16,517 nt of DNA, taken from the NCBI GenBank assembly GCA_016291725.1, contig JAEEYJ010000101.1, positions 1 through 16,517 of the forward strand, given 5' to 3'. A model generated the notes under the pieces. It made no database searches. It had not been told where the DNA came from and worked only from the letters and a program-made list of their open reading frames with translations. A program made the translations under genes and the position numbers. Shown piece by piece: positions 3,877 to 16,410 of this stretch. Each line of letters opens with the position of its first letter. The first letter of the stretch is position 1. This stretch comes from Solobacterium sp. (GTDB taxonomy: Bacteria > Bacillota_I > Bacilli_A > Erysipelotrichales > Erysipelotrichaceae).

Positions 3877-4730
3877 TGCCTGTTGAGGAAAGCCATGATC
3901 TCTCCTCTTCTTCTTTCTGCATCCTGGTAGCCCAGTTCATACAGTTCCCTGCACTTGACCGGGTCACCCTTGAACCGGCTGACCTCAATCGTGCGTGTCG
4001 GCCGCATCAGTACCGCTTTGCCCTCTTCCACCAGAGAATCGATCAGATTCATCTGCTTGTAGTAGTTTTCATGCCGTACACAGTAGTCTTCATAGATCTG
4101 CGGGCACTGGGCATACAGGGTTTTCATCATCATCTTCAGAACGGCCGGTGCCGGCTTTCGCACATAGCCCTCCGGCTTGGTTGTAATGACCATGCAGCGG
4201 GTGCATCCCTGCTCCAGCGCGCGCTCGATGGGGATCATCTTCGTTACACCGCCGTCCAGGCATGGATGCCCTTTGAACTCAACAATCGCAGACGCAATCG
4301 GGAGCGCACAGGCTGCCCGCAGCAGCGTCAGCTTGTCATCGATTTCTCTTGCCGGGTAAAACAGCGTCTTTCCTTGATCCAGGTCATAGACACCGACTTC
4401 CATGTCCGGATCCAGTTCACGCAGCCTGGCCGCATCAAAGTGCTCCTTGCCGAGCAGATCATCCTCCACAAGATGCCGGTAGGCTACATAGTGCCCTTCC
4501 TTCAGCAGCGCCTTGATTCCGATGACCTCATCACTGACCGCATAGTCCACTGCCAGGCGGTAGCCGATATCCGGCCGTTTCAGTTCATAGCAGGCCAGAT
4601 ACATCGCACCTGAGGAGATGCCTGCACTGTAGTCAAACTCTATATTCTGGTCATTCAGCCAGGCAAGCACACCAACTGAATACGCACCCCGGAGACCGCC
4701 GCCTTCCAGTACCAGTCCGTATTTTTCCAT
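3873..4730 (-). CDS. Patatin-like phospholipase family protein
   Basis: 285 residues of the bacterial patatin type (YjjU/RssA-like), predicted lipid acyl hydrolase with a Ser-Asp dyad. Visible: oxyanion-hole motif GGGLRGAY (10-17), nucleophile elbow GISSG (37-41; Ser39), and the catalytic Asp motif LDGG (158-161; Asp159). The C-terminal third (about 185-285) matches the length of the extra domain in this subgroup. No signal peptide, so probably cytosolic or membrane-peripheral. GGAGG 5 nt before the ATG overlaps the end of the amidase gene, and the 3' end overlaps the HAD gene by 4 nt. True lipid substrate unknown. Confidence 0.92.
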   Translation of the reverse strand: MEKYGLVLEGGGLRGAYSVGVLAWLNDQNIEFDYSAGISSGAMYLACYELKRPDIGYRLAVDYAVSDEVIGIKALLKEGHYVAYRHLVEDDLLGKEHFDAARLRELDPDMEVGVYDLDQGKTLFYPAREIDDKLTLLRAACALPIASAIVEFKGHPCLDGGVTKMIPIERALEQGCTRCMVITTKPEGYVRKPAPAVLKMMMKTLYAQCPQIYEDYCVRHENYYKQMNLIDSLVEEGKAVLMRPTRTIEVSRFKGDPVKCRELYELGYQDAERRRGEIMAFLNRQ

Positions 4731-13184: not shown

Positions 13185-13533
13185 GGGGCTGTCATGGTTT
13201 CGACAGGTTTATGTTTGATCCGGACTGCAGTGGTGCGGTGACCTAATCACCACCTAAATTTAAACGCTAGAAATAGTTTTGCTTTCGCTGCTTAATCCGG
13301 CCTGAGTGGCCCGCAGCGCCCGCTCCGGTATGTGTCTGCCGTACCTGAGTGCGTATTCTGCAGAATAAGGTGATTCCGAAGCCTGTAGGATGATCCCGAC
13401 AATCAACAGGCAGATTCCGTATGCTGATCGCTCACTCTCATGCATACGGTCTTATCAAGCAGTGGGATAAACTGTAGGCGTTCGGATGTGGGACAACTCT
13501 TGGACACGGGTTCGACTCCCGTCAGCTCCACCA
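13185..13533 (+). ncRNA. ssrA: Transfer-messenger RNA (tmRNA)
   Basis: One-piece tmRNA of 349 nt, which with SmpB rescues stalled ribosomes and tags the unfinished protein for degradation. 5' GGGGCTG (13185-13191) pairs with 3' CAGCTCC (13523-13529), including the G3-U70-type wobble (13187 with 13527) recognised by alanyl-tRNA synthetase. The T-arm is ACGGG/CCCGT with loop TTCGACT (13506-13522). The 3' CCA is encoded (13531-13533). The tag reading frame lies at 13266-13295. The 3' end is the site of a 46-nt direct repeat found again at 14269-14314. Confidence 0.97.
13266..13295 (+). other. tmRNA tag-peptide reading frame, ARNSFAFAA
   Basis: From the likely resume codon GCT (13266-13268) the frame reads Ala-Arg-Asn-Ser-Phe-Ala-Phe-Ala-Ala then TAA (13293-13295). 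The length and the Phe-Ala-x-Ala-Ala end match short tags of many Bacillota. The resume codon is inferred from that similarity; the stop and the terminal FAFAA are seen directly. Confidence 0.8.
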
Positions 13534-13564
13534 TTGACAAACAGGACTGCAATGGTCCTGTTTT
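13519..13564 (+). repeat. Direct repeat copy 1: ssrA 3' end plus terminator
   Basis: 46 nt covering the last 15 nt of tmRNA and its terminator. It matches 14269-14314 at 45 of 46 positions (single difference at 13525, G against T), with a spacing of exactly 750 nt. This copy completes the functional tmRNA. Confidence 0.9.
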
Positions 13565-13566
13565 TT
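13540..13566 (+). terminator. Terminator of ssrA
   Basis: AACAGGAC (13540-13547), 7-nt loop, GTCCTGTT (13555-13562), T run to 13566. An identical stem recurs at 14290-14312. Confidence 0.9.
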
Positions 13567-13605
13567 ATATAATACAGACAGAAAGACAAAACAGGATCTG
13601 TGATA

Positions 13606-14193
13606 ATGACTGTGTATTGGAATCATAATTCGGCATATTATCCCTGGATACAGAGGAAAACGGCAGACTGCCGGACCATTCTTGACGTCGGCTGCGGCGA
13701 TGGTTCTCTCGCGTTTTTCCTCAATGACGGTGCTAAAAGGATCACAGGAATCGATTCTGACAGTTATTGTATAGGGAAGGCATCCGCGGCGAAAAGCGGA
13801 GAAAACCTGACTTTTTCGTGCCGGAGTTTTGAGGAATATGCTCCGGGCATGACATTTGATGCCATTGTTTTTGTGGCCTCCATCCATCACATGGATATGA
13901 CAAAATCATTGAAGAAAGCAAAATCCCTTCTTTCTTCTTCCGGCAGGATTCTTATTGTCGGAATTGCAAAACCCGCGACAATAATGGACTGGATATTGGA
14001 AGTTTCAAGAGTGATTCCTTCAAAAGTAGCATCAGTTCTTCATCATATGTATACACCTGAAGAACTAAAAATTACCACTTCATACGATTTCCCGGACATG
14101 AAGGTTATACGCAGTATAGTTAAGAAGGAACTTCCCGGTGCGGAAATACATTATGGATTACATTACAGATACCTGGTTGAATGGTCTGTATGA
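13606..14193 (+). CDS. Class I SAM-dependent methyltransferase
   Basis: 195 residues. SAM-binding motif I is ILDVGCGDGSLAFFL (25-39), the acidic end of strand 2 is GIDSD (48-52), the motif IV region is FDAIVFVASIHHMD (84-97), and the later strand LLSSSGRILIVGIA (108-121) completes a Rossmann-type methyltransferase. This resembles small-molecule methyltransferases (ubiE/biotin-synthesis-like group), but the substrate cannot be told. The C-terminal part (122-195) is unassigned. ATG at 13606 with AGGA 9 nt upstream is preferred over GTG at 13600. Base composition is visibly lower in GC than the housekeeping genes nearby. It is the only gene between the two ssrA-derived repeats, which suggests acquisition by transfer. 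Confidence 0.85.
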   Translation: MTVYWNHNSAYYPWIQRKTADCRTILDVGCGDGSLAFFLNDGAKRITGIDSDSYCIGKASAAKSGENLTFSCRSFEEYAPGMTFDAIVFVASIHHMDMTKSLKKAKSLLSSSGRILIVGIAKPATIMDWILEVSRVIPSKVASVLHHMYTPEELKITTSYDFPDMKVIRSIVKKELPGAEIHYGLHYRYLVEWSV

Positions 14194-14268
14194 TGAATTC
14201 GGGTCTATCATATTATTCTGTGAAGTATCAGATAATCTCTGGTGATGATCAGGGGTTCGTCTGAACTG

Positions 14269-14314
14269 CCGTCATCTCCACCATTGACAAACAGGACTGC
14301 AATGGTCCTGTTTT
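14269..14314 (+). repeat. Direct repeat copy 2: displaced ssrA 3' end plus terminator
   Basis: 45 of 46 positions identical to 13519-13564, including CTCCACCA and the whole terminator stem. Upstream of it only a degenerate T-arm-like stretch remains, so no functional RNA end is formed here. The stretch 14194-14268 between the methyltransferase stop and this copy holds no gene I can see. Confidence 0.9.
14290..14314 (+). terminator. Duplicated terminator after the methyltransferase gene
   Basis: Same AACAGGAC / GTCCTGTT stem as the ssrA terminator with a four-T tail. It now serves the methyltransferase transcript. Confidence 0.8.
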
Positions 14315-14398: not shown

Positions 14399-14416
14399 TT
14401 TCACGGAGGCATGGTT

Positions 14417-14656
14417 ATGAAGAAGAATATTGCGAAAGCGGATGAAATGGAAATGGCGGTGAATTATAAAGCAGCCCGGAATACCTATGTGTTTCTGGAA
14501 GCTGCGCTTGCTGTATACTGCCTGATTTATCGTCTGAAAACAGGCGAACTGCCCTGGGTATGGCTGATCTTCATCGGTTCAGGCGTAGTATTCTGGGCTA
14601 CAAAATGGATGGAAACAAGGCGCCTCACTGCACCGGGAGAATCCGATGAAGAATAA
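14417..14656 (+). CDS. Small two-helix membrane protein paired with an XRE regulator
   Basis: 79 residues with two hydrophobic segments (about 22-38 and 46-63), a basic N-terminus and an acidic C-terminal tail. ATG at 14417 is chosen over 14411 because GGAGG is 7 nt from it and only 1 nt from the other. The gene overlaps the following regulator by 11 nt in another frame. Small membrane proteins next to compact YozG-like regulators are a common arrangement in Bacillota. The function of this one is unknown. Confidence 0.75.
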   Translation: MKKNIAKADEMEMAVNYKAARNTYVFLEAALAVYCLIYRLKTGELPWVWLIFIGSGVVFWATKWMETRRLTAPGESDEE

Positions 14657-14837
14657 TGTCAAGGAGCTTCGGAAGAACAAGAATCTGCGGCAGGAAGATC
14701 TGGCAGAGATTCTCGGCGTTACCAGGCAGACCATTATTGCAATAGAAAACAATAAATACGATCCGACACTGGAACTGGCAATGAAAATTTCTGAATACTT
14801 CGGATTGAACGTGAATGAGATCTTCCGGCTGAAATAA
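14646..14837 (+). CDS. Compact XRE/Cro-type (YozG-like) transcriptional regulator
   Basis: 63 residues, only a helix-turn-helix domain. MKNNVKELRKNKNLRQEDLAEILGV followed by TRQTIIAIENNKYDPTLELAMKISEYFGLNVNEIF is the classic pattern, with the recognition helix about residues 26-35. GGGAGA lies 5 nt before the ATG, inside the upstream gene, so the two are translationally coupled. It probably represses its own operon through the inverted repeat at 14335-14398 (inference). Confidence 0.92.
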   Translation: MKNNVKELRKNKNLRQEDLAEILGVTRQTIIAIENNKYDPTLELAMKISEYFGLNVNEIFRLK

Positions 14838-14954: not shown

Positions 14955-15281
14955 ATGAGTATATCCATCATGCTGAAAGCCTTGGGGGAACCGACAAGGT
15001 TTTCTATTTTCCAGCAGCTCCTGATCCGGAAGCACTGTGTCCGTTCTCTGTCAAAGAAGCTTGGAATCACCGAGTCAGCAGTATCCCAGCACATGAAGGT
15101 ACTGAAGGAAGCGGGGATGGTTTACGGTGAACGCTTCGGATACCACATTCATTATCTTCCCAGGCAGGAGGCACTGGATGAACTATGCACTGCCTTTTCA
15201 GAAATGAAGCAGATGTCTCTCGGTCTATGCAGCAGCCCTCAGACCTGCCAGTGTGAATTCCGGAGGGAGGAAGATCAATGA
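14955..15281 (+). CDS. ArsR/SmtB-family regulator with C-terminal Cys cluster
   Basis: 108 residues. Winged helix-turn-helix typical of ArsR repressors: LKALGEPTRFSIFQQLL (7-23), recognition helix region ITESAVSQHMKVLKEAGMV (38-56), and wing YGERFGYHIHYL (57-68). There are five cysteines, three clustered at the end as Cys92-x5-Cys98-x-Cys100, plus Cys28 and Cys78. In the family, Cys thiols often bind metal or metalloid and release DNA. The usual CVC motif of ArsR in the DNA-binding helix is absent, so the C-terminal cluster is the candidate sensor. AGAGG 7 nt upstream. It overlaps the first CHR gene by 4 nt, which strongly suggests it controls that transporter. Confidence 0.9.
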   Translation: MSISIMLKALGEPTRFSIFQQLLIRKHCVRSLSKKLGITESAVSQHMKVLKEAGMVYGERFGYHIHYLPRQEALDELCTAFSEMKQMSLGLCSSPQTCQCEFRREEDQ

Positions 15282-15853
15282 TGCTCCTGATAGATCTCTT
15301 TCTGAGCTTTGCAAGAATCGGTCTGTTCACCTTCGGCGGTGGATACGCTATGATCGCGCTGATTGAAAACACCTGTGTCGAGAAAAAGCAATGGATTACC
15401 CAGGATGAAATGATGAACATTACTGTAATCGCTGAATCCACACCGGGTCCGATCGCCATCAACTGCGCGACTTATGTCGGCTATCAGCAGAAAGGCTTTG
15501 CAGGAGCTTCTGCGGCTACGCTGGGCATCGTTCTGCCGTCCTTCTGCATTATCTTTTTGATATCCAGGTTTCTGGATCATTTTCTGGAAATCACATGGAT
15601 CGCCCACGCCTTCCAGGGCATCAAGATTGCTGTCGGCATTCTGATTCTGGATGCGGCACTCAAAATGCTGAAAAAGATGCAGAAGAAGCCGGTGCCGAAA
15701 GCATTCATGCTCTGTTCGTTTGCATCCATGATTCTGATCAACATCTTTTCGCTCAGAATCTCCTCCATCATTCTGATGCTGTGCGCAGGCATGATCAGCC
15801 TGATCATCTATATAGCTGAAAAATCTGCTTTGGAGGGAGGTGGAGGACGATGA
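15278..15853 (+). CDS. Short-chain CHR (chromate-type) transporter, first half
   Basis: 191 residues with about six hydrophobic segments: one CHR domain, half the size of the two-domain ChrA. Signature motifs are LFTFGGGYAMIALI (16-29) and ESTPGPIAINCATYVGY (53-69). Short CHR proteins occur as adjacent pairs (B. subtilis ywrB/ywrA type) that work together, expelling chromate in tested cases. GGAGG 7 nt before the ATG. It overlaps arsR-like by 4 nt and the second half by 4 nt (ATGA at 15850-15853). Chromate as substrate is family knowledge, not shown here. Confidence 0.92.
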   Translation: MMLLIDLFLSFARIGLFTFGGGYAMIALIENTCVEKKQWITQDEMMNITVIAESTPGPIAINCATYVGYQQKGFAGASAATLGIVLPSFCIIFLISRFLDHFLEITWIAHAFQGIKIAVGILILDAALKMLKKMQKKPVPKAFMLCSFASMILINIFSLRISSIILMLCAGMISLIIYIAEKSALEGGGGR

Positions 15854-16410
15854 TCCTTCTGGAATTGTTCTTCGGTTTCCTTAAAGTCGGCTGTTTCGCT
15901 TTCGGCGGTGCATACGGGGCAATTCCGCTGATCCGCGATGTAGTTCTTTCCTACGGCTGGCTGGACGAAGAAATGCTGACCTACATGATCGCTGTCAGTG
16001 AAAGCACACCGGGACCCATTATGGTGAATCTGGCAACTTATGTCGGAAGCCTGAAGGCTGGAATGCTCGGTTCCGCTGCTGCTACGATTGCTGTTGTACT
16101 CCCGTCCTTTATCATTATTCTTCTGGTTACGGAACTATTGAAAACGGTTCTTCGGAACCCCTATGTACAGGCGGTTCTGCGCGGTCTGAAGCCATGTATG
16201 GTCGGCATCATTCTTGCAACAGGCATCTGTATGATTGTCCGGAATGGTATTGTCATCCAGGACAGTGCTTTGCTGGCCCGACCCTTGATCCTGACGCTCA
16301 TACTCTCAGCAGTCTACTTCGGTTCCCGGAAGATGAAGAAAGGCGGCATTTCACCGGTTCTGCTGATCTGCCTCTCTGCCCTGGCCGGAATCGCCGCATA
16401 TGGATTATGA
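15850..16410 (+). CDS. Short-chain CHR (chromate-type) transporter, second half
   Basis: 186 residues, one CHR domain with about six hydrophobic segments. Motifs CFAFGGAYGAIPLI (15-28) and ESTPGPIMVNLATYVGS (51-67) mirror the first half but differ enough to be the partner rather than a repeat copy. Translationally coupled to the first half by ATGA overlap. Known pairs insert with opposite topologies to form one transporter. No clear terminator follows within the remaining 107 nt. Confidence 0.92.
   Translation: MILLELFFGFLKVGCFAFGGAYGAIPLIRDVVLSYGWLDEEMLTYMIAVSESTPGPIMVNLATYVGSLKAGMLGSAAATIAVVLPSFIIILLVTELLKTVLRNPYVQAVLRGLKPCMVGIILATGICMIVRNGIVIQDSALLARPLILTLILSAVYFGSRKMKKGGISPVLLICLSALAGIAAYGL

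Follow-up and report, generated by a model that had tools for sequence, protein, structure and literature searches.

A single-gene insert beside the tmRNA gene of a Solobacterium sp. and related small units in Erysipelotrichaceae

The tmRNA locus and its insert

The window, which is the whole 16,517-nt stretch of DNA analysed, comes from a draft genome of a Solobacterium sp. (G000; 1.67 Mb, 218 contigs, 80.9% complete) and contains a tmRNA gene whose 3' end is repeated downstream. The two copies of this direct repeat (13515–13564 and 14265–14314) are 50 nt long and 96% identical, with a start-to-start spacing of 750 nt, and their inner 46 nt, which the first-pass annotation had reported as a repeat with one mismatch, do differ at a single position. 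The same annotation described an AT-richer methyltransferase gene and no integrase between the copies, and this description holds: the methyltransferase ORF is the sole gene recognised in 13534–14283, no integrase is found there, and the GC content of the gene is 42.9%, compared with 54.2% upstream and 47.6% downstream. GC as low as this occurs in 2 of 294 windows of 588 nt elsewhere in the stretch. The features of the locus are as follows.

13185–13533, + strand: tmRNA gene (ssrA), the target (ARAGORN; Rfam RF00023, 100.3 bits)
13534–14283, + strand: inserted unit, 750 nt, from just past the CCA of the tmRNA to the CCA of site R (from the repeat and the empty site)
13539–13566, + strand: left-end terminator of the unit, ACAGGACTGCAATGGTCCTGTTTT, which the tmRNA now uses (from the sequence)
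13568–13573, + strand: TATAAT, a −10-like box of the unit, interpreted as a putative promoter
13606–14193, + strand: cargo gene for a class I SAM methyltransferase of 195 aa (PF13649)
14222–14254, + strand: site R, conserved arm upstream of the T-loop motif (from R alignments)
14255–14283, + strand: site R, 29-nt core GTTCGTCTGAACTGCCGTCATCTCCACCA, proposed attP half joined to a tmRNA 3' end (from the 29-nt geometry)
14284–14314, + strand: original tmRNA terminator, displaced downstream (flank matches the single terminator of G036)
14411–14837, + strand: neighbouring two-ORF HTH operon (from comparison with G020)

The methyltransferase ORF matches PF13649 (E 3e-12), and its likely start is the ATG at 13606, which gives the 195-aa protein of record P0001; among the 25 NCBIfam matches listed, none to this protein lies above its cut-off. 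The gene is patchily distributed, being found in 5 of 244 genomes of the family at E 1e-30. In one of the genomes compared (G103), a copy with 84% identity is the second gene after the tmRNA, behind another single-gene unit. The similarity of this copy takes in the left repeat and ends ~20 nt past the stop codon, and no site R follows it. A search of viral_contigs with a methyltransferase pattern matched three stretches, none of which was confirmed.

An integrated element at the tmRNA 3' end had been proposed, together with a search of relatives for a single repeat copy and no methyltransferase, and the genome G036, from the same genus, provides exactly this arrangement. It aligns with the window at 96% identity over 3260 nt, up to 13565, past which it has a single terminator and then the homologue of 14315 onward. 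Its right flank is 82.6% identical over 576 nt from 14265, and no methyltransferase lies within 2222 nt downstream of its tmRNA. Therefore, the unit in the window is an insertion. Identity is 96.4% in bipA, 100% in tRNA-Leu, 92.7% in the membrane gene and 99.1% in the tmRNA, and 84.5% and 82.3% in the two ORFs of the HTH operon, a drop that may mark a recombination break near the islet. By its sequence, the insert looks like an integrative element of tRNA and tmRNA 3' ends, with an intact tmRNA gene, a repeat of the 3' end at the far edge and an empty site in a relative, and it lacks the integrase of its own that such elements carry.

The left edge of the insert probably lies at the CCACCA of the tmRNA, judging from units in other genomes. 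The two terminators in the window are near-identical, which hides the exchange point there and points to gene conversion or to exchange past the CCA. The extension of the repeat past the CCA, which had been remarked on as longer than a usual att core, is real and corresponds to the tmRNA terminator, which any inserted unit has to provide anew; in three related cases the exchange maps to CCACCA rather than to the distal end of the repeat. Terminators similar to the one at 13539–13566 were found after tmRNA, after tRNA-Ala and after other R sites, and the TATAATACAGACAGAAAGACAAA of the putative promoter region of the unit recurs before other cargo in G100 and, with small changes, in G103. The terminator followed directly by TATAAT (ACAGGACTG..GTCCTGTTTTTGTATAAT; 13539–13573 in the window, L088–L106) recurs between genes in several genomes of the genus, often with a leader like AAATCGGGATTTGTGAGG. 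It was rejected as a mark of the units, as it is present at many places that have no site R.

Other observations concern the surroundings of the insert. The HTH operon is perhaps an older unit; in G020 it is located between the tmRNA and a degenerate R. Farther downstream (14955–16410), an ArsR-type regulator is followed by two chromate-transporter genes, a stretch that is unmatched in the G036 contig compared. The tmRNA loci of the genus (L107–L142 and others) are a hotspot with various other inserts, and 7 of 41 genomes (G004, G005, G014, G040, G043, G044 and G051) have one other element type, which starts with TACCTAATAAAGGGG; contigs end within 1.5 kb downstream of the tmRNA in 15 of the 41. 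In L225 (G038:C18), another copy of a tmRNA-like 3' end, spaced at the usual 24 nt, is found at 4530–4563, ~3 kb upstream of the tmRNA.

Small units that end in site R

Sequence comparison indicates that the islet is not a lone relic, as units with other cargo recur in related Erysipelotrichaceae genera, mostly after tmRNA, once after tRNA-Ala, and sometimes in arrays. A relic left after integrase loss, as first suggested, is thus not the whole story: units with the same end sequence and different cargo form cassettes and arrays in several genera. What had been read as a decayed T-arm before the second copy is instead a conserved motif, 5 nt longer than a T-arm, that is common to these units. 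The distance from T-loop motif to CCA end is 29 nt in R and 24 nt in tRNA and tmRNA genes. In the window, GTTCG to CCA spans 24 nt in the T-arm of the tmRNA (an attB-type half) and exactly 5 nt more in the core at 14255–14283.

The consensus of 11 R sites is nATnAnATAATCTCTnGTGAnnATnAnGGGTTCGTCTGAACTCTCCTCAGCTCCACCA. A model built from these sites and run on 315 genomes of the order, like all genomes compared here assemblies and mostly drafts, found 14 places in 13 genomes at E < 1e-6, 11 of them the training sites and the others in G149, G256 and G146, with the match in G149 a close copy of a training site. The 29-nt pattern with up to two mismatches gave 47 matches in 43 of the 315 genomes and 10 in a reversed control, so matches at this level are partly chance; with zero or one mismatch there were 15, one of which (G021) is inside a long ORF. 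As the sites used to train both model and pattern measured 29 nt, the 29-nt length of their matches is partly by construction. Another pattern search gave 12 matches, comprising six R sites, four that look like chance matches inside protein-coding genes by eye (L156–L159), and those in G032 and G104. The end-sequence pattern also matched 12 times in genome_contigs, eight times in Solobacterium sp. or Erysipelotrichaceae and four times in what the titles give as Planctomycetes, Microgenomates and Cyanobacteria, which we took as chance. The R patterns had no match in viral_contigs, and a phage origin of the units was set aside on this result.

The cargo next to R is varied. Besides the methyltransferase in the window, it includes a 93-aa ORF and, after tRNA-Ala, a 203-aa ORF without a Pfam match (G103, G041); GNAT genes in G013, G030 and G051 (Pfam was run on G051 only); DUF3784 (G255, G258), radical SAM (G258, G149) and DUF4303 (G254) genes; and, in genus g61, a RelBE-like pair (G249, G247) in which the antitoxin alone matches Pfam, and does so below the cut-off. 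Units range from 448 to 2467 nt (n = 13). When R sites with different cargo were aligned upstream of the T-loop motif, all nine chosen pairs beat all 1000 base shuffles, and the conservation of R extends over 57–88 nt upstream, beyond what the half-site of a large serine integrase (LSR) needs. This arm is not evidently decayed LSR coding sequence (3 of 60 pairs at p < 0.01). A hairpin or attC-like single-stranded form of R was rejected: the consensus holds one hairpin, of 5 bp and with no two-sided changes, and five single folds look ordinary (z −2.0 to 0.5).

R-type sites also form arrays. Three follow the tmRNA of G258, including two strong ones. Of the three in G255, one is strong and another very weak, and the three of G247 are weak by the model and match the 29-nt pattern with one or two mismatches, with no tmRNA in the stretch examined. 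The stretches examined around the R sites of G051, G254 and G256 likewise contain no tRNA or tmRNA, and the only tRNA upstream of the R site in G030 is a tRNA-Lys 7 kb away. In genus g61 (L222, G247:C25; L326, G249:C223), the R variant GTTCGTCTATTTTTTCATCGGCTCCACCA bounds a DUF4143-like ATPase, identified by eye, and RelBE-like units. Just upstream of the R site in L219 (G256:C38, 29–5868) is a series of codirectional small genes separated by short leaders, which by eye encode GNAT, TfoX-like, NUDIX-like and acetyltransferase-like proteins.

Comparison between genomes places the left edge of units at CCACCA in three cases, one of them between genera. Between G255 and G258, 348 of 351 tmRNA positions are identical. 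The DUF3784 unit directly follows CCACCA in G255. Its counterpart in G258 (97.0% over 598 nt) lies 1216 nt farther on, separated from the tmRNA by a radical-SAM unit that has an R of its own, and these extra 1216 nt start after CCACCA and end with R. This radical-SAM unit adjoins the tmRNA in G149, which belongs to another genus: it is identical at 1098 of 1214 positions (90.4%), compared with 250 of 340 aligned positions (73.5%) for the two tmRNAs. Finally, the RelBE-like unit of G249 and G247 (979 of 1006 positions identical, 97.3%) begins at CCACCA and follows a tmRNA in one genome and an R in the other, with a 5-nt gap in the T-arm of the alignment.

The 29-nt geometry and large serine integrases

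Among 80 distinct tRNA and tmRNA genes in the loci compared, 50 have a span of 24 nt between the G of GTTCG and CCA, none has 29 nt only, and 30 have neither. We compared this with the 3' ends of LSR genes from the family in 20 distinct windows, leaving out one duplicate window and eight LSR loci without a tblastn match. A TTCG-to-CCACCA-type span was present in seven, at 29 nt in six and at 20 nt in one, where base shuffles led us to expect ~0.014 windows per span length. This count was set up after 29-nt sites had been seen by eye, and the G003 window that prompted it is one of the six. Relatives of the G003 LSR are found in 16 of 272 genomes of the family. In G003:C11, a partial LSR overlaps a 29-nt site, and a left end of the unit type comes next, in tandem.

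Five LSR elements were examined with their flanks. Three are anchored, at tmRNA in G242 (10.7 kb), at tRNA-Ala in G244 (9.9 kb) and at tRNA-Thr in G127 (10.0 kb), and in each the LSR is the last gene, with a 29-nt site at its end; for the other two (G238 and G227), no tRNA or tmRNA lies upstream in the stretch examined. These 9.9–10.7 kb elements are larger, bear an integrase and have the same kind of right end, and so resemble the elements for which a search had been advised. Four full-length LSRs contain Resolvase, Recombinase and zinc-ribbon domains. One module, made up of a small ORF, an ORF that is ParB-like by eye and the LSR, recurs in the LSR elements of L323, L324 and L328. At their left ends, the three anchored elements carry an exact inverted motif 11 nt after CCA, so their attP appears palindromic, with its centre near T|CCACCA. 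At the corresponding place, the small units have 3–7 mismatches of 7 in 13 of 13 cases, some of them copies of one unit; the unit in the window has 4 of 7 at +11 and a near match, with one mismatch, at +2.

Rutherford et al, in the part of their paper drawn on here, find that the zinc-ribbon motif of attB is 5 bp closer to the centre than that of attP (PMC3783163). By this shift, the 5-nt longer T-arm of R is the expected look of an attP half. In its geometry R thus resembles attP, with the motif 5 bp farther out than in attB and the left half-site absent, and an LSR probably acts on it. LSRs were detected (PF07508, E 1e-5) in four of 15 genomes with R-type sites and in one of five without; the 11 of 15 with none detected are mostly incomplete drafts, and the window genome, 81% complete, has no match at this threshold. 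A trans-acting LSR resident in all R-bearing genomes was looked for and not found.

Possible routes of movement and known systems

We propose, with a probability of roughly 55%, that the islet is a single-gene, non-autonomous, cis-mobilisable cassette in which R is half of an LSR attP, and that it moves by tandem accretion with LSR elements. The proposal builds on the insert and its empty site, the recurrence of R with other cargo, the CCACCA left edge in related units and the 29-nt geometry common to LSR genes, all read from sequence; the action of an LSR on R and accretion itself are the steps that we infer. An LSR family would target tRNA and tmRNA 3' ends, and R would be half of its attP joined to a tmRNA 3' end. 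An LSR element would insert between the tmRNA and the cassette, so that the attL of the element and the R of the cassette form a valid pair and the two could excise together. The composite would integrate at another tmRNA, and the LSR element could later excise alone, leaving the cassette. Accretion would need no left half-site in the cassette because attL comes from the LSR element. Its predictions are a left edge at the core, arrays that grow next to the tmRNA, units in genomes with no resident LSR, and LSR–unit tandems; the first two of these are observed, and G003:C11 shows one tandem of the predicted kind. Several findings count against it: the scarcity of LSRs in genomes with R, the missing left inverted motif, the long arm of R, the methyltransferase copy of G103 without R, the R sites with no tRNA or tmRNA nearby, and the near-identical terminators in the window. 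An integrase supplied from elsewhere, mentioned at first as a possibility, has become the best explanation; that it would probably be an LSR was not foreseen.

Alternatively, the unit itself could circularise and be moved in trans by an LSR, like a MITE or an integron cassette, and never be in tandem with an LSR element. Small units with conserved right ends, their arrays and the extra unit next to the tmRNA would suit such a circle, which we nevertheless judge unlikely: units lacking the left inverted motif of the three anchored elements would form a circle with only half an attP, and 11 of the 15 genomes with R-type sites have no detected LSR. We give a similarly low chance to the idea that the units are the remains, in place, of full LSR islands after internal deletion, with nothing small ever moving. 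Islands of 9.9–10.7 kb with a like right end do exist, and 15 of 31 ssrA islands in Dehalococcoides have no integration module in the part of the survey used here (PMC3146451). Yet one unit is found with both its edges in two genera and at different array positions, and independent deletions would not yield the same left edge at CCACCA.

The recurrence of terminator and TATAAT modules in the genus raises the prospect that repeated modules of tmRNA end, terminator and promoter let the units spread by homologous recombination or natural transformation, with R kept for another reason. The identities in G036 (92.7–100% in the upstream genes, 82.3–84.5% in the HTH-operon ORFs) also suit a break near the islet. 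This account is improbable given a CCACCA junction between genomes whose tmRNAs are 73.5% identical and a 29-nt geometry common to R and LSR genes. Tyrosine integrases are known at ssrA, and one that uses the tmRNA 3' end could in principle move the units: each of the 18 genomes searched has tyrosine recombinases, and in G030 and G051 one lies downstream of the tmRNA on the same contig. The contigs of 14 strong R sites contain no PF00589 match (E up to 1e-8), however, and such an enzyme would leave the 5-bp shift and the overlap with LSR genes unexplained, which makes it very improbable. A regular expression for tyrosine recombinases was uninformative, as it flagged no ORF in the tmRNA loci although two are present. 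Lastly, the tail of the tmRNA could merely have been duplicated in tandem in this lineage. Such a duplication would give two near-identical 50-nt copies, but it is already largely refuted by the empty site in G036 and by the R that the second copy shares with units of other cargo, and is scarcely credible.

A broader and more tentative picture, possible in our view, is integron-like gene capture without integrons in the Erysipelotrichaceae. Arrays of single-gene cassettes would be anchored at tmRNA and tRNA-Ala genes. Each cassette would end in a conserved half-site of a serine integrase, newcomers would enter next to the tmRNA with a terminator and a promoter, and visiting LSR elements would be the shared engine. 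Small genes do seem, from the comparisons above, to be passed around as single-gene units beside tmRNA. To our knowledge, integrons have hardly been reported in gut Firmicutes. If the picture is right, serine integrases with tmRNA and tRNA anchors would join the short list of systems that collect single-gene arrays in bacteria. Such cassettes could be searched for as copies of a 3' end with the T-loop motif 29 rather than 24 nt from CCA, and 'decayed' tRNA fragments downstream of tRNA genes may be attP halves.

No report of such tmRNA- or tRNA-anchored cassettes was found in openly licensed PubMed Central papers. Several known systems share some of their features. Integron cassettes have mixed cargo, including GNAT and toxin–antitoxin-like genes, and integron attC sites contain R'' and R' (GTTRRRY) boxes. 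By eye, no GTTRRRY box is present in 14222–14283, and an integron origin was rejected; the contig of the window (C130) has no PF00589 match. Integron cassettes and CALINs, in the portion of the source used, combine one gene with one recombination site, form arrays and rely on an integrase elsewhere (PMC11389934). The units described here resemble them in having one gene and one site, arrays, mixed cargo and a presumed helper integrase elsewhere. In contrast to integrons, R is not an attC, the arrays are anchored at tmRNA or tRNA genes and a serine integrase is the likely enzyme; the units also seem to bring a terminator and a promoter.

CIMEs, in the passages drawn on here, have no integration or transfer genes, keep their att sites, occur in tandem with integrase-bearing elements, move by accretion and are described as decayed ICEs or IMEs (PMC5704250). 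The unit in the window is like a CIME in lacking integration and transfer genes and in keeping a right att site, if R is one, and differs in that its left att has no half derived from the element. The units as a whole are mostly single-gene, have a putative right attP half only and seem to spread as a family, unlike CIMEs as portrayed there. The proposed 5-bp shift between attP and attB is shared with serine integrases such as A118 and LI, where it is a shift of the zinc-ribbon motif (PMC3783163). In the part of the source used, that rule comes from phage integrase sites, whereas here it is read off the sequence of tRNA and tmRNA T-arms.

The closest precedent that we found, by analogy, is the ssrA islands of Dehalococcoides. 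According to the sections of the study used here, these are tandem insertions bounded by repeats of the ssrA 3' end, with a CcrB-like large serine recombinase whose gene overlaps att at its 3' end; the integration module, absent in 15 of 31 islands, includes a ParB-domain gene, and the best-described islands are multi-gene, as in the ~12 kb vcrABC islands, with a 20-bp repeat and a 15-bp motif (PMC3146451). The Erysipelotrichaceae units similarly lie in tandem after ssrA, the LSR elements overlap an att-like site, and the module of small ORF, ParB-like ORF and LSR resembles the Dehalococcoides integration module. A DsiB-type LSR beside att, as in Dehalococcoides, was not found in the window genome at the PF07508 threshold given above; the overlap of LSR gene and site is seen in separate elements. 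Compared with the islands as described in that study, the units here are smaller (0.45–2.5 kb), usually consist of one gene and use tRNA-Ala as well, once, and they have a longer conserved R arm, a visible 5-bp shift and one intact unit in two genera.
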